DNA of 64,000 nt from NCBI RefSeq assembly GCF_009650765.1, contig NZ_CP045740.1, positions 3,038,001-3,102,000 of the forward strand, read 5' to 3'. Within the stretch, counting starts at the first letter, position 1, and each line of letters begins with the position of its first letter. Positions 2,257 through 12,618 of the stretch are shown here, one piece after another. The translations under genes were made by a program, and so were the position numbers. Under the pieces are notes generated by a model, which worked only from the letters and a program-made list of their open reading frames with translations, was not told the origin of the DNA and did not search any database. The stretch is from Streptomyces sp. SUK 48. Lineage in GTDB: Bacteria > Actinomycetota > Actinomycetes > Streptomycetales > Streptomycetaceae.

Positions 2257-3435
2257 TCAGTAGACCGGCTTGTCCGGCTCGATCTGGTTGACCCAGCCGA
2301 TGACGCCGCCGCCGACATGGACGGCGTCGGAGAAGCCCGCGGACTTCAGGACCGCGAGGACTTCCGCACTGCGGACACCCGTCTTGCAATGCAAGACGAT
2401 CTTCTTGTCCTGGGGCAGCGTCTCCAGGGCGGTGCCCATGAGGAACTCGTTCTTCGGGATCAGCGTGGCACCCGGGATGGAGACGATCTCGTACTCGTTC
2501 GGCTCGCGGACGTCGATGATCTCGATGTTCTCGCCGTCGTCGATCCACTCCTTGAGCTGCTTGGGAGTGATCGTCGAACCGGCCGCCGCCTCCTGGGCCT
2601 CCTCCGAGACGACGCCGCAGAACGCCTCGTAGTCGATGAGCTCGGTGACGGTCGGGTTCTCGCCGCAGACCGCGCAGTCCGGGTCCTTGCGGATCTTGAC
2701 CTGGCGGTACTGCATCTCCAGGGCGTCGTAGATCATCAGCCGGCCGACCAGCGGGTCGCCGATGCCCGCGAGGAGCTTGATGGCCTCGTTGACCTGGATG
2801 GAGCCGATCGACGCGCACAGCACGCCGAGCACACCGCCCTCGGCGCAGGAGGGGACCATGCCCGGGGGCGGGGGCTCCGGGTAGAGGCAGCGGTAGCAGG
2901 GGCCGTGCTCGGACCAGAAGACCGACGCCTGGCCGTCGAAGCGGTAGATCGAACCCCAGATGTACGGCTTGTTCAGCAGCACACAGGCGTCGTTGACCAG
3001 GTAGCGGGTGGCGAAGTTGTCCGTGCCGTCCACGATCAGGTCGTACTGGCCGAAGATGTCCATCACGTTCTCGGCTTCGAGCCGCTCCTCGTGAAGGACC
3101 ACGTTCACGTAAGGGTTGATGCCCTTGACGGTGTCGCGCGCGGACTCGGCCTTGGAGCGGCCGATGTCGGACTGGCTGTGGATGATCTGGCGCTGCAGGT
3201 TCGACTCGTCGACCTCGTCGAACTCCACGATGCCGAGCGTGCCGACACCCGCCGCGGCCAGGTACATCAGCGCGGGCGAACCCAGGCCGCCGGCGCCCAC
3301 GCACAGCACCTTGGCGTTCTTCAGCCGCTTCTGCCCGTCCATGCCCACATCGGGGATGATCAGGTGGCGGGAGTACCTGCGGACCTCGTCTACGGTGAGC
3401 TCGGAAGCGGGCTCGACCAGGGGTGGCAGCGACAC
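2257..3435 (-). CDS. moeZ: Adenylyltransferase/sulfurtransferase MoeZ (ThiF/MoeB domain + rhodanese)
   Basis: A 392-residue two-domain E1-like enzyme. It adenylates the C-terminal Gly-Gly of small sulfur-carrier proteins and transfers sulfur to form the thiocarboxylate used in molybdopterin, thiamine, cysteine (CysO-type) and thiolated natural-product synthesis. The N-terminal ThiF domain has the nucleotide loop GAGGLGS (47-53), zinc Cys pairs C180/C183 and C254/C257, and a candidate catalytic Cys197. The C-terminal rhodanese domain has the active-site loop CKTGVRS (Cys350). GTG at 3435 has GGAG upstream. It is transcribed alone, convergent with the marR gene. Confidence 0.95.
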   Translation of the reverse strand: MSLPPLVEPASELTVDEVRRYSRHLIIPDVGMDGQKRLKNAKVLCVGAGGLGSPALMYLAAAGVGTLGIVEFDEVDESNLQRQIIHSQSDIGRSKAESARDTVKGINPYVNVVLHEERLEAENVMDIFGQYDLIVDGTDNFATRYLVNDACVLLNKPYIWGSIYRFDGQASVFWSEHGPCYRCLYPEPPPPGMVPSCAEGGVLGVLCASIGSIQVNEAIKLLAGIGDPLVGRLMIYDALEMQYRQVKIRKDPDCAVCGENPTVTELIDYEAFCGVVSEEAQEAAAGSTITPKQLKEWIDDGENIEIIDVREPNEYEIVSIPGATLIPKNEFLMGTALETLPQDKKIVLHCKTGVRSAEVLAVLKSAGFSDAVHVGGGVIGWVNQIEPDKPVY

Positions 3436-3498: not shown

Positions 3499-4263
3499 TC
3501 ATTCCGAGACACCCGGTCCGAGGCGCGAGACGATTTCGTCCCAGTAGCCGGGCATCGCCTCCCAGGGGTCCCCCGAGCCACGGCCTCCGGTGCGGTCCGT
3601 GAAGTAGACCGTGGCCGCGCCCTGCCAGCGCGCGACGCGCAGCGCCTCCTCCAGATGCCCGCGCGGCACCCCGTGCACGAAGTGGCAGAACCGCTCGGGC
3701 GGATGGTCGGCGGTCCACTCCGCGACCTGTGACCAGCGGTAGTCGGACCAGGAGCCGGAGAAGGTCACCAGCTGGTCGGCGTGGTCCGCGTAGCCCGGGT
3801 GCGGGTGGGTGCCGTGGCCGAGGACGAGACGGGCACTGTCGTTGATCGCCCGCAGCTCCCCGAGTACCCGGCGGACGCCGTCGAGTTCGGCGCGGCCGTG
3901 GGGGCAGCGGTCGAGGAGGAAGCCGTCGACCCGGTACCAGTCGAGGTAGCGGTGGGCGTCGCGGACCAGGTCGGCGTGGGCGCGGACGCCCTGCGCGAGG
4001 TCGAGGCGGCCGAGGACGCGCGTGCCCGCGTGGTGCAGCGCCTGAGCCGCCGTCAGGCAGTGCGGGTCGGGGCGGGCGCCGGGGCCGCCGGCCACGTCGA
4101 GCGCCACCCAGTCCAGCGGGGTGCCGGGGCGGGCGAGCGCGGCCCACTGGGCGGGGGCGACGAGCGGGTGGGCGAAGCCGGGGACGCCGAGGGCGGTGCG
4201 GACGGCGGTGCCGGTGGCGCCCAAGGCGTCCTCGGTGGTGCCGGTGCTGGTCAGATGCGGCAT
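3499..4263 (-). CDS. Spherulin-4-like / GH135-GH166-type glycoside hydrolase
   Basis: A 254-residue protein resembling spherulation-specific family 4, a TIM-barrel family related to the polysaccharide hydrolase domains of Sph3 and PelA. The barrel strands VALDVAGG (near 53-60) and VDGFLLD (112-118) are the visible hallmarks. No signal peptide is present, so it is predicted cytosolic or exported by an unknown route. In characterised relatives the Asp of the second strand is followed by Glu; here Asp118 is followed by Arg119, so catalysis may be altered or lost. Its start overlaps the end of the epimerase gene by 13 bases, so the two are co-translated. The family call is an inference from motif and fold pattern. 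Confidence 0.72.
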   Translation of the reverse strand: MPHLTSTGTTEDALGATGTAVRTALGVPGFAHPLVAPAQWAALARPGTPLDWVALDVAGGPGARPDPHCLTAAQALHHAGTRVLGRLDLAQGVRAHADLVRDAHRYLDWYRVDGFLLDRCPHGRAELDGVRRVLGELRAINDSARLVLGHGTHPHPGYADHADQLVTFSGSWSDYRWSQVAEWTADHPPERFCHFVHGVPRGHLEEALRVARWQGAATVYFTDRTGGRGSGDPWEAMPGYWDEIVSRLGPGVSE

Positions 4264-5210
4264 GCCGCCTCCATCCAGATGTCGGCCAGGGACTCTTCGA
4301 GGTTGATGCGCGGCCGCCAGCCGAGCCGGTCGCGCGCGGTGCGCACATCGGCCTGCTGCCAGCCGCCGCAGCCGTCCGGGTAGGGGAACGCGGCCGGGGC
4401 AGTGTGCTCCGACTCGGCCCGGGGGTGGCCGAGGCCGCCGCGCAACACCCCGGACGGGGCGTCGAGTTCGTGCAGCGCGCCGCCGTAGCCGGCCACGCGG
4501 GCCAGGATTCCGGCGGCGTCCCGCAGCCGTACGGCACGGCCCGAACCGATGTTGATCACGCCCTGCGCGGCGGAGAGCGAGGCGGCGTGCACGGCGCGGG
4601 CGACATCGCGTACGTCCACGAAGTCGCGCTGCACACCGAGTCCGGCGAGTTTCAGTTCCCCGTCGCCGGACTGCATCGCGCGGCGCATCGCCTCGGCGAG
4701 CCGGCCGAGCGGGGAGCCGGCCGGGGTGCCGGGTCCGCAGGGCGAGAAGACGCGCAGCACCACGGCGTCCAGACCGGAGCCGAGGACGAGTTCGGTGGCG
4801 GCGAGCTTGCTGACGCCGTACGGACCGCCGGGCCGCGGTACGGCGTCCTCGGCCGTGGACGAGCCGGGCTGGCTGGGCCCGTACTCCGCGCCGCAGCCGA
4901 TCTGCACCAGCCGCGCGCCGCAGCCGCTGCGCCGCAGCGCCTCGCACACGGTGGCCACGGCGACGGTGTTGTGCCGGGTCAGCTCGCGGGCACCGCCGCG
5001 GGTGGCACCGGCGCAGTTGACGACGACCCCGGGGTGCACCGCCCCCAGGAACCGGGTGAGCGCGCCCGGGCTGCCGGTGGCGAGGTCGAACCGGACGTCC
5101 GCGTCGTCGCCCCGCCCGAGCGCGGTGAGCTGTACGGCGGGGTCGGCGAGCAGCCGCTCGGCCACGAACCGGCCGAGGTAACCATTGGCTCCGATCAGCA
5201 GGACCCTCAT
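4251..5210 (-). CDS. NAD-dependent nucleotide-sugar epimerase/dehydratase (extended SDR)
   Basis: A 319-residue extended short-chain dehydrogenase. GANGYLG (7-13) is the NAD-binding loop and YGVSK (Tyr131, Lys135) the catalytic pair. The third triad residue, usually Ser/Thr shortly before the YG, is not evident: the segment reads IGCGAEYG. In context it may make the nucleotide sugar for the neighbouring glycosyltransferase, comparable to PelX (UDP-GlcNAc 4-epimerase) beside pel genes, but the sequence alone does not give the substrate. Its ATG shares four bases (ATGA) with the stop of an 18-codon mini-gene and its end overlaps the spherulin-like gene, so all three are probably translated as a coupled unit. 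Confidence 0.85.
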   Translation of the reverse strand: MRVLLIGANGYLGRFVAERLLADPAVQLTALGRGDDADVRFDLATGSPGALTRFLGAVHPGVVVNCAGATRGGARELTRHNTVAVATVCEALRRSGCGARLVQIGCGAEYGPSQPGSSTAEDAVPRPGGPYGVSKLAATELVLGSGLDAVVLRVFSPCGPGTPAGSPLGRLAEAMRRAMQSGDGELKLAGLGVQRDFVDVRDVARAVHAASLSAAQGVINIGSGRAVRLRDAAGILARVAGYGGALHELDAPSGVLRGGLGHPRAESEHTAPAAFPYPDGCGGWQQADVRTARDRLGWRPRINLEESLADIWMEAACRI

Positions 5211-5263
5211 CGGGCGGCTCCCTGGGTGAGGGCTTCGGGGGCTCCCTGGTGGGAGGTGGACAT
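5207..5263 (-). CDS. 18-residue mini-ORF translationally coupled to the epimerase
   Basis: ATG at 5263 is preceded by a strong GAAGGAGA site about 8 bases upstream, better than the site in front of the epimerase itself. The peptide reads MSTSHQGAPEALTQGAAR and its TGA overlaps the epimerase ATG as ATGA. This architecture suggests a translational-coupling leader or a genuine micro-protein. I do not recognise a family. A simple alternative is that it only delivers ribosomes to the epimerase start. Confidence 0.5.
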   Translation of the reverse strand: MSTSHQGAPEALTQGAAR

Positions 5264-5322
5264 CTGGAGGTCTCCTTCAACGGGGTGGTGCTGTTGGTTC
5301 GGGGGGCGGCGCGAGCCGGTGC

Positions 5323-6459
5323 TCACCCGGGTGCTCCGGTGGGTGCGTGGGCGGAGGCGCGGGTGAGGGTGCGGCCGGCGTGCAGCAGCAGGGCCAGGGC
5401 GGCGGTGCCGCAGGCGAGGGCCGGTACGGCGGGTTCGCCCACGGTGTCCGTGAGGGTCCGCACGGGCAGCGCGAGCAGCCGGCAGTGGGGCAGCCGCCCG
5501 GCGAGGGGCAGCGCGAGGGCCATCGCCTCGGTGACCGCGGCGGCGCCGAGGGCGAGGACGGGGGCGCGCCGGTGCCGGTACGCGATGAGCAGCCGGGCGA
5601 GCAGGAGCAGGGCGCCGAGGGTGAGCGCCTGCGGGAGGGCCGCGGGTTCGCCGAGGACCTTTCCGCACGCCAGGAGGAGCGCGGCGAGCGCGCCGAGGAA
5701 CAGGGCGAAGGCGCCGAGCAGCAGGGGGCGCGCGGCGGCCGTGAAGTCGTCGAGGCCCCGGCTGCCGGCGAGTGTGCGCCGGGCGCCCGCGGCGAGGAGA
5801 TGGGCGCACCAGGCGGCGGGCGCGAGGGCCAGGGTGAGGGCGAGCGCGGGCGCGGTGGTGGTGGGCCAGGCGCCGCCGGGCGCGCCGTCGGGCAGCGCGT
5901 CGGGGCCGCCGGTGAGCACGTCGTGCAGCAGGCCGTCGCCGAACAGCGCGTAGCCGAGGAGCCAGAGGGTCCAGCTGACGAGGGATCCCTGCCAGGGGCG
6001 GGGGCGCCGGTGCCCGTCGCGCACGGCCAGGGGTCCGGTGCGCAGCGCCGCGCGGGCCGTGAGGGCGACGACGACGATCCCGGCCGCGGCCACGAGCAGC
6101 CGCGGCTGTCCCTGGGTGAGCCGCGTCCCGGCCGCGGTGCCCGCCGCGGCGGCCCCGGGCAGCAGGCTCAGCAGCGCCCACGCCGCGTTGATCCGGGGCA
6201 CGGGGACGGCCGGCTTCGGCTCCGGCGGGGGCTCCCCGGTCCGCGGCACCCGCGCGTACAGCTCCTCGGCCAGCGAGAAGACGTCCCGGTGCCGGAACCG
6301 CGCCGCTGTCCGGTCGGTGATCCCCTGTGCCTCCAGCCCGGCCGCGATCTCCAGCGCGTCGACGGCCTGTTCGCACAGGTCGCGGTGCCGGTGGAGCAAC
6401 GCCTTGACGGGGTCGCCGGAGGGGCGGCGGGGGGTGGCGCCATGGGAGGGGGCGGGCAT
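5323..6459 (-). CDS. Polytopic integral membrane protein of the Pel-like cluster (downstream part of a possibly split gene)
   Basis: A 378-residue protein with a cytosolic N-terminal region of about 95 residues (VKALLHRHRDLCEQAVDAL..., predicted helical) followed by about eight hydrophobic segments from residue 95 to the C-terminus. It sits between the PelF-like glycosyltransferase and the epimerase, where an exporter or polymerase partner would be expected, but it is shorter than PelG and I cannot assign it to a flippase family. ATG at 6459 has no good ribosome-binding site, and an in-frame stop at 6526-6528 limits extension. The preceding frame (see 6168-7052) looks like its missing N-terminus after a one-base shift. 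Confidence 0.7.
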   Translation of the reverse strand: MPAPSHGATPRRPSGDPVKALLHRHRDLCEQAVDALEIAAGLEAQGITDRTAARFRHRDVFSLAEELYARVPRTGEPPPEPKPAVPVPRINAAWALLSLLPGAAAAGTAAGTRLTQGQPRLLVAAAGIVVVALTARAALRTGPLAVRDGHRRPRPWQGSLVSWTLWLLGYALFGDGLLHDVLTGGPDALPDGAPGGAWPTTTAPALALTLALAPAAWCAHLLAAGARRTLAGSRGLDDFTAAARPLLLGAFALFLGALAALLLACGKVLGEPAALPQALTLGALLLLARLLIAYRHRRAPVLALGAAAVTEAMALALPLAGRLPHCRLLALPVRTLTDTVGEPAVPALACGTAALALLLHAGRTLTRASAHAPTGAPG

Positions 6460-7052
6460 GGGCGCAGACGGCCCGCTCGCGGGGCGGGCGGCGGGTGGTC
6501 GACGAGGGCCGCGGAGGTACGGGGCTCACCGGCACGGGACTTGGCGAGGACCACCCCGGAACCGGAGGACGCGGGCACGGAGCGGGGGGTCGCCGCCGAG
6601 GCGCCCGGCCGCTCCGGGGAGGTCGCGCCCGTGCGAGGGAAACCCTCGGCCGAACTGGGCATGTCAGAAGGGGGGTTGAAGCCAGGGGGGTTGACACCAG
6701 AGGTGTTGAGGCCAGGGACGTTGACGCCAGGCATGTCGAAGCCAAGCGCCCCGGCACCGGGCGCGGAGGGCACGCCGTCGGCGGCGTCCGGCCAGCTCAC
6801 GGGGTCCTCGCCGCCGTACGGGCCGGCTACAGGGGCCCCCCGGTTCACTCCGACCGGCGCCTGCGGCCACTCCCCCACGTCCGACGCCACCCCGGCCGAG
6901 GATCGCTCTCTCGCCCCCGGAGCCGCCCCGGCCGAAGGCCGCTCCCCCGACTCCGAGGCCACCTTGGCCGGTCCCGGAGCCATCCCGGCCGAGGGCCCCG
7001 CTTCCGCGCCCCACGGCACCCCGCCGCTCGGCTTTCTCGGTGTGTCGCTCAT
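6168..7052 (-). CDS. Pro/Gly/Ala-rich N-terminal portion, apparently frameshifted into the membrane protein
   Basis: The frame starts with ATG at 7052, overlapping the glycosyltransferase stop as ATGA, and reads MSDTPRKPSGG. Residues 1 to about 195 are low-complexity and predicted disordered, with five pentapeptides of elastin-like type G-hydrophobic-x-x-P at residues 104-128. Codon usage is coding-like down to about 6470, after which the -1 frame (the membrane protein starting at 6459) takes over and this frame becomes a shadow until its stop at 6168. The simplest explanation is one gene, 5323-7052, broken by a missing base in the C-rich stretch near 6440-6470, by a real mutation, or less likely read by -1 slippage. 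Only the region above about 6460 should be treated as real coding sequence. Confidence 0.5.
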   Translation of the reverse strand: MSDTPRKPSGGVPWGAEAGPSAGMAPGPAKVASESGERPSAGAAPGARERSSAGVASDVGEWPQAPVGVNRGAPVAGPYGGEDPVSWPDAADGVPSAPGAGALGFDMPGVNVPGLNTSGVNPPGFNPPSDMPSSAEGFPRTGATSPERPGASAATPRSVPASSGSGVVLAKSRAGEPRTSAALVDHPPPAPRAGRLRPCPPPPMAPPPAAPPATPSRRCSTGTATCANRPSTRWRSRPGWRHRGSPTGQRRGSGTGTSSRWPRSCTRGCRGPGSPRRSRSRPSPCPGSTRRGRC

Positions 7053-8719
7053 CGGGCGGGCTCCGTGGTCGGGAGGGCCCAGGTGGGGGTGGCGGGCCAG
7101 TGGGCGGGGACGTGGGATTCGGCGGGGGCGGCGAAGGGCAGCGGCGCGCCGGACGCGTCGAGGAGGTCGCGGCGGACCGGGCAGTGCGAGACGATCTCCA
7201 GGTAAATGCCGTGAAACGCCGCGATGTTCTGCTCGACGGTGAACAGTTCCAGCGCCCGGGCCCGCGCGGCCGCCCCGAGCCGCGCACGGCGCTCGGGGTC
7301 GCGCAGCAGCGCCACACACGCGTCGGCGAGCGCTCGCGGATTGCGCGGGGGCACGACCAGTCCCGTACCGCCGATCACCTCGACCACCGCGCCGGCGTCC
7401 GTCGACACGGTCGCCCGGCCGCAGAACATGGCCTCGATCAGCCCGGTGGGGAAGCCCTCCACCACGCTGGAGAGCACGACGACGGCGCCGGAGGCGTACA
7501 CCTCGGGCAGCGTGGGCGCGTACGGGCTGCCGATCTCCTCGAAGGAGACCGGGTTGCAGCCGACCGTGTGCGCCCCCTCCGCCTCGTCCGGGAAGAGCTG
7601 CGCGGCGAGCGCCCGGCAGTGCCCGAGGTACGCCGTTGACTCGGGTCCGTCCACCGTACCGACGATGCGCAGCCGGGCCCGGGGCTCCCGCCTGCGCACC
7701 TCGGCGAAGGCGTGCAGCAGCGCGACCAGGTCCTTGGCGGGTTCGACGCACCCGACCCAGACCAGGGTGTCCGGGTCCGCCCGGTCCGGTGACTCGCCGG
7801 CCTCGGCGAAGCCGTCGGCGGCCATGCCCGGGTACACGGTGCGAATCCTGGCCCGGTCCGCACCGCACCGCTCCTGCCAGCGGCGGGCGTGCGCGTTGCC
7901 CGGGGTGAGGATCTCGGCGCGCCGGTAGGTCTCGGTGGCGAGCCGTCCGTGGAACGCGGCGAGCAGGGCGCGCACCGCGGGCGCCGCCCCGGGCCCCCGG
8001 TCCAGGTACTGGGCGCGCAGATGGACGCCGTACTCGGTGACCAGCAGCGGCACCCCGCGAAAGTGCCGGGCGAGCAGCCCGGGGAGGGCGGCGGGGCCGC
8101 CGGACGTGGCGTGGCAGAGGTCGGCCGCGCCGAGCGCGTCGTCGCCGTACCAGTCGAGGGACAGGGGGCGCAGGGCGCGTTCGAGATGGCCGGTGACGGT
8201 GAGCAGGTCGGCCACGCGCGCCTCGCGCGCCGTGCGCGGCGCACCGGGCGCCCGGCAGGCGCGCTCCAGGGTGCGGACGCCGAGGTCGGAGCGGAGCGCC
8301 GCGCCGAGTCCGCCCTCCTCACGGGCGAGTTCGGCGAGCCCGTACAGGGCGTTGGCGAAACGGTCCGCCACGGCACCGGAGGCGCTGTGGTCCGCGGCCG
8401 TACCGCCCGTGCCGCCGTCCGCCGCCGTGCATACCGCGGCGGCCAGCTCGCCGTAGTGCTCGGTGAAGCGCCGGCGCGCGCGCCGTCCGTACCCGACCGC
8501 CCCGCTCTCGCCCCCGGCCGTCCACAGCGGTGCCGTACGGACCCGGGTCACCTGGGGCGGGAGCGGGAGCAGGCCCGCTTCCTCCTGGTGCCTGCTGCGG
8601 CTGAGCGCGTAGAGGTCGAACTCGTGCTGTCCGAGCCCGCGCACCAGCCGGTCGCACCAGAGGCCGGCGTCCCCGCCCGCAAACGGATAGCCGCCTTCTG
8701 TCAGCAGTCCCGTGCGCAC
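7049..8719 (-). CDS. PelF-like family 4 glycosyltransferase (DUF3492 N-terminal domain)
   Basis: A 556-residue GT-B enzyme. The N-terminus TGLLTEGGYPFAGGDAGLW matches the start of PelF/DUF3492 proteins (LLxEGxYPxxxGG). A mid-protein DLCHATSG...LLVTEYGVHLRA segment and, in the C-terminal Rossmann domain, VWVGCVEPAKD and EVYASGAVVVLSSVVEGFPTGLIEAM follow the PelF pattern; the last contains the donor-binding E-x7-E-type region. PelF polymerises amino-sugar exopolysaccharide at the inner membrane from UDP-sugars. GTG at 8719 starts the conserved sequence; an AGGAGG lies 18 bases upstream and a G-run closer. Its stop overlaps the next gene, so it heads a 3.5-8.7 kb operon. Confidence 0.82.
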   Translation of the reverse strand: MRTGLLTEGGYPFAGGDAGLWCDRLVRGLGQHEFDLYALSRSRHQEEAGLLPLPPQVTRVRTAPLWTAGGESGAVGYGRRARRRFTEHYGELAAAVCTAADGGTGGTAADHSASGAVADRFANALYGLAELAREEGGLGAALRSDLGVRTLERACRAPGAPRTAREARVADLLTVTGHLERALRPLSLDWYGDDALGAADLCHATSGGPAALPGLLARHFRGVPLLVTEYGVHLRAQYLDRGPGAAPAVRALLAAFHGRLATETYRRAEILTPGNAHARRWQERCGADRARIRTVYPGMAADGFAEAGESPDRADPDTLVWVGCVEPAKDLVALLHAFAEVRRREPRARLRIVGTVDGPESTAYLGHCRALAAQLFPDEAEGAHTVGCNPVSFEEIGSPYAPTLPEVYASGAVVVLSSVVEGFPTGLIEAMFCGRATVSTDAGAVVEVIGGTGLVVPPRNPRALADACVALLRDPERRARLGAAARARALELFTVEQNIAAFHGIYLEIVSHCPVRRDLLDASGAPLPFAAPAESHVPAHWPATPTWALPTTEPAR

Positions 8720-8800: not shown

Positions 8801-8834
8801 GGTGGCGCGACGGACGGTTGTCCGTCGCGCCACC
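8801..8834. terminator. 15-bp perfect hairpin after the peptide ABC operon
   Basis: Arms 8801-8815 and 8820-8834 pair perfectly around a four-base GGTT loop. The hairpin lies 106 bases beyond the stop of the ATPase gene and upstream of the glycosyltransferase, insulating the two minus-strand operons. The rest of 8720-8939 holds only the presumed promoter of the glycosyltransferase. Confidence 0.8.
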
Positions 8835-10541: not shown

Positions 10542-11536
10542 GCGAGCACCACCCGTCGGTCGGCCACCGCGTACAGCACGTCCGCGACGGCGTTGGCGAG
10601 CACCACGAAGAACGCGATGACGAGGACCATGCCGACGACCACCGGCAGGTCGACGACCTTCACCGCGTGCACCAGCTCCTGGCCGATGCCGGGCAGCCCG
10701 AACAGGGTCTCGGTGAGGACGGCGCCGCCCACGGCGGAGCCGACGTTGTTGGCGTTGAGCGCGATGACCGGGGCGAACGCGCCGCGCAGCGCGTGCCGCC
10801 CGACGATGGCCCGCTCGCCGACGCCGTACGCGCGGAAGGTGCGTACGTGGTCCTCGGCGAGGGTCTCCAGCATCGCGGCGCGGGTCAGCCGGGCGAAGGT
10901 CGCGGCCTCGATCAGGGCCAGCGACAGCCAGGGCAGCAGCAGGTTCCAGGCCCACTGCTGGGGGTCGTCGGTGAAGGCGACGTACTCCGGGAAGGGCAGC
11001 AGCTGGAGTTCGCCGCAGACGACGATCATCAGCACCAAACCGATGACGAACACCGGGGTGGCGGTGCCCGCGAGGGTGATCGCGGTGAGCACCCGCTCCG
11101 AGACGCGGCCGCGCCGCCAGGCGGAGAGGATGCCGGTGCCGACACCGAGGGCGAGCCACAGCACCATGCCGCCGAGCACCAGCGAGAGGCTGACCGGCAG
11201 CTTGCCGAGGATGATGTCCAGGACCTGCTGCCCGGTCTGGTACGACTGCCCGAGGCAGGGCGCCGCGCAGTGCTCCACGGAGGTGCCGGTGGAGAAGTCC
11301 TGGCCGGCCAAAAGGCCCTGGAGGAAGTGCCAGTAGCGCACGTAGAGGGGGTCGCCGAGGTGCAGCTGTTCGGCGACCTGGTGCACCTGGGCGGGCGAGC
11401 AGCGCGGGCCGCAGGTGATCTGGGCGACGTTGCCGGGGGTGACGTAGAAGACGACGTAGACGATGACCGAGACGGCGAGCAGGGTGATGACCGCGCCCAC
11501 GGCCCGGCGCAGCAGGAATCCGCCGAAGCCGCTCAC
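10538..11536 (-). CDS. Peptide ABC transporter permease, DppB/OppB type
   Basis: A 332-residue inner-membrane permease. It has an N-terminal membrane segment (AVGAVITLLAVSVIVYVVFY), a large extracytoplasmic loop containing two Cys-rich stretches (CGPRCSP; HCAAPCLG), and the five C-terminal membrane segments of the family, with the ATPase-contacting loop around TRAAMLETLAEDHVRTFRAYGV and the conserved ALRGAFAP segment. It overlaps both neighbours by four bases (ATGA), which implies equal, coupled synthesis with its partner permease and the fused ATPase. Confidence 0.92.
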   Translation of the reverse strand: MSGFGGFLLRRAVGAVITLLAVSVIVYVVFYVTPGNVAQITCGPRCSPAQVHQVAEQLHLGDPLYVRYWHFLQGLLAGQDFSTGTSVEHCAAPCLGQSYQTGQQVLDIILGKLPVSLSLVLGGMVLWLALGVGTGILSAWRRGRVSERVLTAITLAGTATPVFVIGLVLMIVVCGELQLLPFPEYVAFTDDPQQWAWNLLLPWLSLALIEAATFARLTRAAMLETLAEDHVRTFRAYGVGERAIVGRHALRGAFAPVIALNANNVGSAVGGAVLTETLFGLPGIGQELVHAVKVVDLPVVVGMVLVIAFFVVLANAVADVLYAVADRRVVLA

Positions 11537-12618
11537 AGGGTCGCCTCCTTCTTGACCGCGTCCTCGGCCGTGCCCTTTTCCGTGCCCCTGGACGTCTCCG
11601 TGCCTTCCGTGCCCTTGGCCGTGCCCGTGCCCCTGGCCTTCTTCTTGCGGCCGGTGCCGACCCGCAGCCGGGAGGCGGCGCGCGGGTCGAGGGCGGTGCG
11701 CACGCCGTCGCCGAGCACGGTGAGGGCGAGGATGGTGACGAACAGGGCGCCGGCCGGCAGCAGCAGGTACTGCGGGGCGGCCTGGTACCAGACGTCGGCG
11801 GCGGTGAGCATCTGTCCCCAGGAGGGCGTGGGCGGCTTGACGCCGACGCCGAGGAAGGACAGGGCCGATTCCGCCGAGATGTTCGAGGGCACGAGGAGCG
11901 CGGCGTACGTGATGATGGGCGCGGCGAGGCCGGGCAGCAGCTCCCGGTGGGCGATCCGCCAGGTCCGCCAGCCGCTGAGCCGGGCGGCACAGACGTAGTC
12001 GAGGCCCTTCAGGGACAGGGCCTGCGCGCGCACGATCTTCGCGATGCCGCCCCAGCCGATCAGGCCGAGGACGAGGGTGACCAGGACGGGCCGCGGGAAG
12101 CTCGCCGGGACGACCGCGAGCAGCGCCAGCGACATGATCATCAGCGGCATGGCGACGATGATGTCCGTGATCCGGCTCAACACTTGATCAACCCATTGAT
12201 TGCCGAGGGCGGCCGCCACGCCGACGGCCACGCCGATGGTGATCTGGATGACGGTGGCGGCCAGGGCGACGCCGAGCGAGACCCGGGCGCCGTAGACCAG
12301 GCGGGCGAACAGGTCGCGGCCGGTCTGGGGTTCGACGCCCAGCCAGTGCTCCGCGCCGATGCCCCCGAGGGAGCCGACCGGCACGCCCCCGCGCGCGGAG
12401 TCGATCAGGGACGGGTGGTAGGTGAAGGGGTCCTGGCCCTCCAGGGCGGTGAGCAGCGGCGCGGCGAGCGCGACCAGGACGAGCAGCGCGACGACGGCCG
12501 CGGCGACCAGGGCGGCGCGCTGCGCCCGCAGCCGCCGCCAGAACCGGCGGGCCCCCGCGGCCGCCGGGACGGGGAGGTCCGTCCCGGCGGCCGGGGTGGC
12601 GAGGAGTGACTCGGTCAC
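11533..12618 (-). CDS. Peptide ABC transporter permease, DppC/OppC type
   Basis: A 361-residue permease. It has a short cytosolic N-terminus, a first membrane segment near residue 35 (LVAAAVVALLVLVALAAPLL), the OppC_N domain and five further membrane segments, with the ATPase-coupling loop around VRAQALSLKGLDYVCAARLSGW. The C-terminal 45 residues are a charged Lys/Thr/Gly/Glu tail with irregular GTxKGTE repeats, unusual for the family and probably a disordered cytosolic extension. It forms the heteromeric pore with the DppB-type protein encoded immediately downstream (four-base overlap). Confidence 0.92.
   Translation of the reverse strand: MTESLLATPAAGTDLPVPAAAGARRFWRRLRAQRAALVAAAVVALLVLVALAAPLLTALEGQDPFTYHPSLIDSARGGVPVGSLGGIGAEHWLGVEPQTGRDLFARLVYGARVSLGVALAATVIQITIGVAVGVAAALGNQWVDQVLSRITDIIVAMPLMIMSLALLAVVPASFPRPVLVTLVLGLIGWGGIAKIVRAQALSLKGLDYVCAARLSGWRTWRIAHRELLPGLAAPIITYAALLVPSNISAESALSFLGVGVKPPTPSWGQMLTAADVWYQAAPQYLLLPAGALFVTILALTVLGDGVRTALDPRAASRLRVGTGRKKKARGTGTAKGTEGTETSRGTEKGTAEDAVKKEATL

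Follow-up and report, generated by a model that had tools for sequence, protein, structure and literature searches.

Does a cluster of genes that resembles part of a Pel exopolysaccharide system make a matrix polymer in Streptomyces, and if not, what is it for? The cluster lies in a stretch of 64,000 nucleotides (the window; positions 3,038,001 to 3,102,000 of contig NZ_CP045740.1) from Streptomyces sp. SUK 48, whose genome is a single contig of 8.34 Mb and whose closest fetched relatives are Streptomyces. The original prediction, made from the letters of the window, listed a PelF-like glycosyltransferase (GT), a membrane protein (MP), a mini-ORF, a nucleotide-sugar short-chain dehydrogenase/reductase (SDR; here EPI) and a spherulin-like gene (SPH). 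This gene set was confirmed on the minus strand, with the start of SPH corrected to an ATG at 4263 that overlaps the EPI stop. The best explanation in our judgement, held with evenly balanced confidence, is a divergent glycan-assembly operon akin to Pel and galactosaminogalactan (GAG) systems, which we call type I, whose chemistry would have changed and which would be partly pseudo-enzymatic in the sister genera of Streptomyces. The features are as follows.

7049..8719, minus strand: GT, PelF-like GT4 glycosyltransferase of type I; GTG start, protein begins VRTGLLTEGGYPF; DUF3492 91.2 bits (cut-off 23.3)
6460..7052, minus strand: low-complexity N-terminal tail of MP; ATG at 7052 overlaps the GT stop (ATGA, 7052-7049)
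5323..6459, minus strand: core of MP, a multi-transmembrane protein; open frame with predicted transmembrane helices
5207..5263, minus strand: mini-ORF of 18 aa, MSTSHQGAPEALTQGAAR and stop; preceded by GAAGGAG, stop overlaps the EPI start (ATGA)
4251..5210, minus strand: EPI, extended SDR; PF01370, 123.9 bits
3499..4263, minus strand: SPH, Spherulin4/GH135-like; Spherulin4 64.9 bits (cut-off 30.2); ATG at 4263 inside EPI
2257..3435, minus strand: moeZ, adenylyltransferase/sulfurtransferase; MoeZ equivalog 758.6 bits (cut-off 647); marks the locus
8801..8834, no strand assigned: perfect inverted repeat of 15 nt with a 4-nt loop, in the gap that separates the upstream ABC gene from GT; probably terminator-like

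A conserved operon and its kin

A protein scan yielded 496 stretches encoding a relative, of which the 80 best loci were kept, each with Streptomyces in its title. Order and strand (GT-MP-EPI-SPH-moeZ) are identical in 75 of these 80, and the other five (L026, L036, L037, L066, L067) stop before the later genes at contig ends; the proposed co-occurrence of all four protein genes thus holds in every complete locus, an arrangement far beyond chance. The constant unit runs from GT to moeZ, because moeZ is present in all 66 loci longer than 21 kb and the upstream ABC-transporter genes in only 45-48 of them. At one type I locus (L113, G401:C18) no SPH was detected between EPI and moeZ. Beyond these loci, EPI was found (E<=1e-60) in 191 of 200 Streptomycetaceae genomes, 15 of 17 genera and 63 of 63 Streptomyces, with 59-95% identity across the family among the matches listed. 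The MP family, all types pooled, occurs in 190 of 199 sampled Streptomyces genomes, a count that includes some weak matches, and in 34 of the 296 genomes of a class sample, belonging to 4 of its 105 genera. EPI and the N-terminal domain of MP are the best-kept parts of the operon. The genes GT, MP, EPI, SPH and moeZ are under purifying selection, with ratios of nonsynonymous to synonymous substitution rates (dN/dS) of 0 to 0.52 in nine Streptomyces pairs, three of which include this strain, the values being usually lowest for EPI and moeZ.

Judged by its proteins, the type I locus is a moeZ-linked paralogue of actinobacterial agd3/GAG-like operons, and a second such cluster is present in the same genome. 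This second cluster (L003, G000:C1:7487500-7507000) encodes an Agd3-like protein, a glycosyltransferase (GT2), a membrane protein (MP2), a GDP-mannose-dehydratase-like SDR, a nucleotidyltransferase, EPI2 and SPH2. GT2, EPI2 and SPH2 are 41-43% identical to their type I counterparts in this strain (GT 41%), MP2 shares 48% identity with MP over 57 residues, and the MP profiles of type I and agd3-type loci reach 98.6% in hhalign. We call L003 and L110-L112 type II, and L104 and L105, where the order is Agd3-like-GT-MP-SPH, type III; an Agd3-like match was also obtained at three non-Streptomyces loci (L107-L109). The Agd3 label rests on homology to a protein of the pel locus L133, itself scoring 85.8 bits with Agd3_CE; the L003 protein scores 19.5 bits, under the cut-off of 27.6, and is unlisted in the whole-genome scan with that model. 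With its two SDRs, a GT2 that exceeds the PelF cut-off and an SPH2 that retains the acid/base Glu, L003 is a candidate galactosamine-polymer operon.

Earlier work described agd3 operons in bacteria that encode a cytoplasmic GT together with a multispanning membrane protein, and Spherulin-4 genes in some Actinobacteria (PMC7229062, available text). Type I shares homologous GT, MP and SPH with them, and EPI also in the case of type II. It differs from what that text describes in lacking the deacetylase, and from type II in lacking the nucleotidyltransferase and second SDR; its place beside moeZ is constant, and the active sites of its GT, EPI and SPH are altered. No Agd3-like (CE18) deacetylase was found at the type I locus, and none genome-wide in 103 of the 190 Streptomyces genomes bearing the MP family. 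Of the 199 sampled genomes, these 103 have the MP family only, 87 have both, 7 neither, and 2 an Agd3-like match without the MP family, one of them weak (Agd3-like total 89). A type I locus in a genome without any Agd3-like gene therefore appears to be common. The fungal galactosaminogalactan cluster, given as uge3-gtb3-sph3-agd3-ega3 in the accessible parts of PMC4817252 and PMC11356417, likewise contains a synthase, an epimerase-type SDR and a Spherulin-4 protein, kinds of part also present in type I, but unlike type I it holds agd3 and ega3.

MP combines a soluble domain, conserved at the N terminus (about residues 16-72), with some nine transmembrane helices. At E<=1 its core had no match in Pfam or NCBIfam, and its sequence matched nothing among solved structures at E<=10. 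A comparison of predicted folds tentatively suggests a resemblance to flippases of the MOP superfamily, and is also compatible with PelG and other MOP families. The mini-ORF has an ATG, a Shine-Dalgarno sequence and an ATGA overlap with EPI in this strain and in the 74 loci tested (75/75, starts being chosen by nearness to the Shine-Dalgarno sequence), and its length varies from 11 to 237 codons, mostly 15 (n = 75). What is conserved in it are the two ends, which favours reading it as a translationally coupled leader for EPI. A functional peptide was considered too and lost weight, since the length varies, only the start, Shine-Dalgarno sequence and end are kept, and the end overlaps the ribosome site of EPI. 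The leader ORF is enlarged to 106-237 Ala/Gly-rich codons in L023, L020, L009 and L011.

Active sites in Streptomyces and its sister genera

Active-site counts for GT cover this strain and 80 loci (n = 81), those for EPI and SPH this strain and 75 loci (n = 76). In GT, the EX7E motif, the GGxx loop and the donor Arg and Lys are residues to which we assign what we take to be their usual roles. EX7E is retained in 81 of 81 Streptomyces type I sequences, and the donor Lys in 80, with Arg in the remaining one. Arg324, the donor Arg, is present in 77; the four exceptions are this strain and L021 (Cys), L006 (Gly) and L082 (His). The signature of a retaining GT4 glycosyltransferase (EX7E, donor Arg/Lys) would thus be complete for the family and partial for this strain. 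Other positions have changed throughout: in place of the second Gly that PelF and types II and III have in the GGVS loop, 74 type I proteins have Asp and 7 have Glu (GGDAG in this strain), and TEHG reads TEYG in all 81.

EPI carries GxxGxxG and YxxxK in 76 of 76 sequences, and its catalytic Ser is Cys in every one of them (Cys106 in this strain). Of the extended SDR triad, whose three elements we presume to be GxxGxxG, YxxxK and this Ser, the Ser/Thr is therefore missing in all type I proteins and the other two motifs are present. The best solved relative is RMD (GDP-6-deoxy-4-keto-hexulose reductase, PDB 2pk3; E 1.6e-19), where IGSSEEYG stands in place of the IGCGAEYG of EPI; NDP-4-keto-6-deoxysugar reductases lead the solved relatives, with UDP-glucose 4-epimerases lower. 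Of the nucleotide-sugar epimerase proposed earlier, the extended SDR stands, and a UDP-GlcNAc epimerase activity is made less probable by the RMD-like match and the missing Ser. All five type II and outgroup EPIs that were readable here have the Ser. In the outgroup locus L108 (G275), the EPI homologue at about 11294-12166 keeps Ser and has His in place of the YxxxK Lys.

SPH matches Sph3 of family GH135 (PDB 5c5g) over the whole domain in a profile search (E 4e-15). The catalytic pair of Sph3 is given as verified, Asp196 and Glu222, in the accessible text of PMC12054363; we located it by motif in the alignment and took the numbering as printed. At the acid/base position, type I SPH has Ser in 56, Arg in 10, Ala in 8, His in 1 and Cys in 1 sequence, and Glu in none of the 76 (Ser169 in this strain), and the catalytic Asp is retained in 66. 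The acid/base Glu is present in all 11 type II, type III, outgroup and pel-locus spherulins, among which only two pel-locus rows retain the Glu that follows Asp in Sph3. The predicted structure of SPH is too poor to use (mean pLDDT 50), so that the active-site claim rests on alignments. By eye SPH has no signal peptide and it looks cytosolic, unlike fungal Sph3, described in the portion of PMC12054363 at hand as an active membrane-bound hydrolase at the exit of the polymer from the synthase. The spherulin-like hydrolase of the original prediction is hence upheld as a Spherulin4 domain, but not in its hydrolase residues.

Eleven loci of other genera of the family have EPI beside moeZ in all 11 cases, an MP match in 10, GT in 9 (with the queries used) and SPH in 2, SPH being not found in the other 9. 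A targeted GT search of 33 genomes chosen from the EPI rows gave 30 loci, with MP following GT in 28; together with the 11 loci these amount to 36 distinct genomes, leaving out the duplicates L175 and L176 and a type II-like second locus of G776 (L171). Linkage to moeZ was observed directly only in the 11 loci, that of L169 (g304) being unchecked. At the aligned positions, the first EX7E Glu and the donor Lys are lost in 31 of the 36 GTs, the donor Arg in 29 and both EX7E glutamates in 25. The 31 comprise 19 of 19 sequences of g303, 7 of 7 of g292 and 3 of 3 of g300, plus g293 and g301, and all four residues are kept in five GTs (g296, g297, g298, g304, g305). No internal stop was seen among the matches listed, some of which are split in two, and dN/dS has a median of 0.43 and a maximum of 0.75 (178 non-independent overlapping pairs of 23 sequences); neutral decay is therefore unlikely. 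From its residues, GT looks like a pseudo-enzyme in most sister genera examined, and the locus may have shifted there to a non-polymerising role. EPI of the 11 loci has Ser in 6 (g303, g293, g292, two g300, g298) and Cys in 5 (g295, g296, g297, g301, g305).

A family-wide exaptation is a reading that we put forward tentatively: a moeZ-linked Pel/GAG-type synthase operon would have become a membrane complex with a working core of SDR and flippase-like MP, and GT and Spherulin4 would persist in it as conserved pseudo-enzymes, serving as sensors of sugars or nucleotide sugars or as scaffolds. Different lineages would have dismantled different sites, GT in g303, g292, g293, g300 and g301, EPI and SPH in Streptomyces. 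A repurposed complex, an ex-glycan synthase acting as a membrane scaffold or sensor whose GT and SPH bind without catalysis and whose conserved core is MP and EPI, is a possibility about which we are rather doubtful. It would fit the stop-free, selected GTs of the sister genera, the loss of the SPH acid/base residue and of the EPI Ser in every Streptomyces locus, and the strong conservation of EPI and the MP N-terminal domain. However, both EX7E glutamates persist in all 81 Streptomyces sequences, which would be unexpected were catalysis dispensable, and YxxxK is invariant in EPI, whose Ser survives in more than half of the sister-genus loci. Some changes among the 31 GTs are also mild: of the 19 g303 sequences, all 19 have Asp instead of the second Glu, 15 have Arg instead of Lys, and 18 retain the His, which most of the 31 have, and four g292 rows show a Glu just one residue away from the aligned site. 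The five sister-genus GTs that are intact at all four residues weigh in the same direction.

Decay and Pel membership

A relic, that is, a decaying operon with no important role in this strain, is unlikely. Every complete relative (75 of 75) has an uninterrupted MP frame from the GT stop onward, which in those read includes a long low-complexity tail; in this strain, unlike L004 and L005, the tail is out of frame with the core, the discrepancy amounting to roughly two bases and lying most plausibly near 6490. Together with Arg324Cys of GT, this frame difference may impair the locus, and either could be a sequencing error or real. The missing SPH of L113 and of most sister-genus loci would also suit decay. 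Against it stand the dN/dS values well under 1 for all five genes, including the three pairs with this strain, the constant gene order in the complete Streptomyces loci and the near-universal presence of EPI.

As to Pel itself, whose polymer is a partially deacetylated alpha-1,4-GalNAc, the original prediction had noted that PelG and PelD were not evident, and genome searches found neither. The best PelG match in this genome scores 13.8 bits (cut-off 29), a control from T. maritima being detected, and the best PelD_GGDEF match 12.1 bits (cut-off 27), a weak negative because no control genome matched the PelD model. By sequence, MP is indeed something other than PelG, as had been suspected (profile-to-profile probability 0.1%; type II/III MP 0.3%). 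In the class sample, full-length PelG was found in 0 of 296 genomes and partial matches (E<=0.001) in 11, 4 of which are barely over the cut-off (30.0-33.4 bits against 29). Seven partial Streptomyces matches span only profile positions of about 321-446, in frames of more than 1200 aa, and are presumably MurJ-like. A phylum sample gave full-length PelG in 3 of 296 genomes. No PelA/PelADA-type deacetylase gene was found among the operon proteins, the Agd3-like gene occurring only in the distant cluster L003. Two GH114 endo-galactosaminidase-like proteins are encoded outside both clusters (G000:C1:259615, 192 bits; G000:C1:489528, 181 bits).

The placement of GT in the PelF clade had to be given up. 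With the PelF equivalog model (cut-off 100 bits) it scores 91.7 bits; the nearest relative (L004) reaches 97.8, GT2 165 and the g303 form 66, and PelF proteins beside PelG 370 and 491 bits (490.7 in L133). In a GT tree of 23 rows, which is unrooted (a root was set only for drawing) and for which the tool warns of long branches, a 100/100 branch separates three PelF proteins of full-PelG loci from types I-III and three other actinobacterial GTs; type I forms one group (100/100) joined to types II and III (93/94). For comparison, the actinobacterial loci L133 (G521) and L134 (G493) encode PelF and PelG together with a Spherulin4 protein that has a signal-peptide-like start and a deacetylase (Agd3_CE/CBM87 in L133); a close PelG match (87%) is named Rubrobacter xylanophilus.

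The Gram-positive Pel operon is pelDEADAFG in the accessible text of PMC7112168. Type I has a PelF/DUF3492-type GT4 as such operons do, and in L133 and L134 a spherulin-like gene is nearby as well. Compared with the operon as that text gives it, type I has no detected PelG, PelD or deacetylase and a GT below the PelF cut-off, and its spherulin, set beside those of Gram-positive Pel loci, shows neither a visible signal peptide nor the acid/base Glu. A reduced Pel system making a cationic GalNAc/GalN matrix was accordingly rejected as very improbable: a PelF-like GT and a Spherulin4 fold do occur together with an SDR in one conserved operon, and the same source describes Gram-positive pel operons, in bacilli, that have GalE-like and PelA-hydrolase-like genes at their flanks, but PelF membership, PelG, PelD, the deacetylase gene and the catalytic Glu of SPH are all wanting.

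A possible glycan-assembly route

In Streptomyces the locus is probably glycan-related, and the glycan-assembly operon that we favour could work as follows. A cytosolic GT4 enzyme would move sugar from a nucleotide-sugar onto a membrane-facing acceptor, with EPI involved in nucleotide-sugar supply. MP, flippase-like and with its conserved cytosolic docking domain, would carry the product across the membrane, and SPH, staying cytosolic, would bind glycan or serve as a scaffold without hydrolysing. Translation of EPI, and of the overlapping SPH, would be coupled to the upstream message by the mini-ORF. Because the operon has neither deacetylase nor working hydrolase, the expected product is a neutral, unremodelled glycan or glycoconjugate rather than a cationic Pel/GAG matrix polymer. 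The analysis demonstrates the order of the genes, the relationship to agd3-type operons, the changed active sites, the purifying selection and the conserved leader; that GT is catalytic, that MP flips, what SPH does and what the product is are proposals.

A literature search gave no study of the moeZ-linked operon in titles or abstract starts among the matches listed. Judged by EPI, nearly all sampled Streptomycetaceae carry this exopolysaccharide-like locus, and each of its soluble enzymes is catalytically altered or depleted. Where an agd3-type paralogue is present in the same genome, it provides a built-in control. If our reading is true, the locus would be a polysaccharide operon that, unusually for bacteria, was retained while its chemistry changed or was lost, and it would caution that matches to PelF, an epimerase and a spherulin are by themselves no safe ground for predicting a Pel or GAG biofilm.

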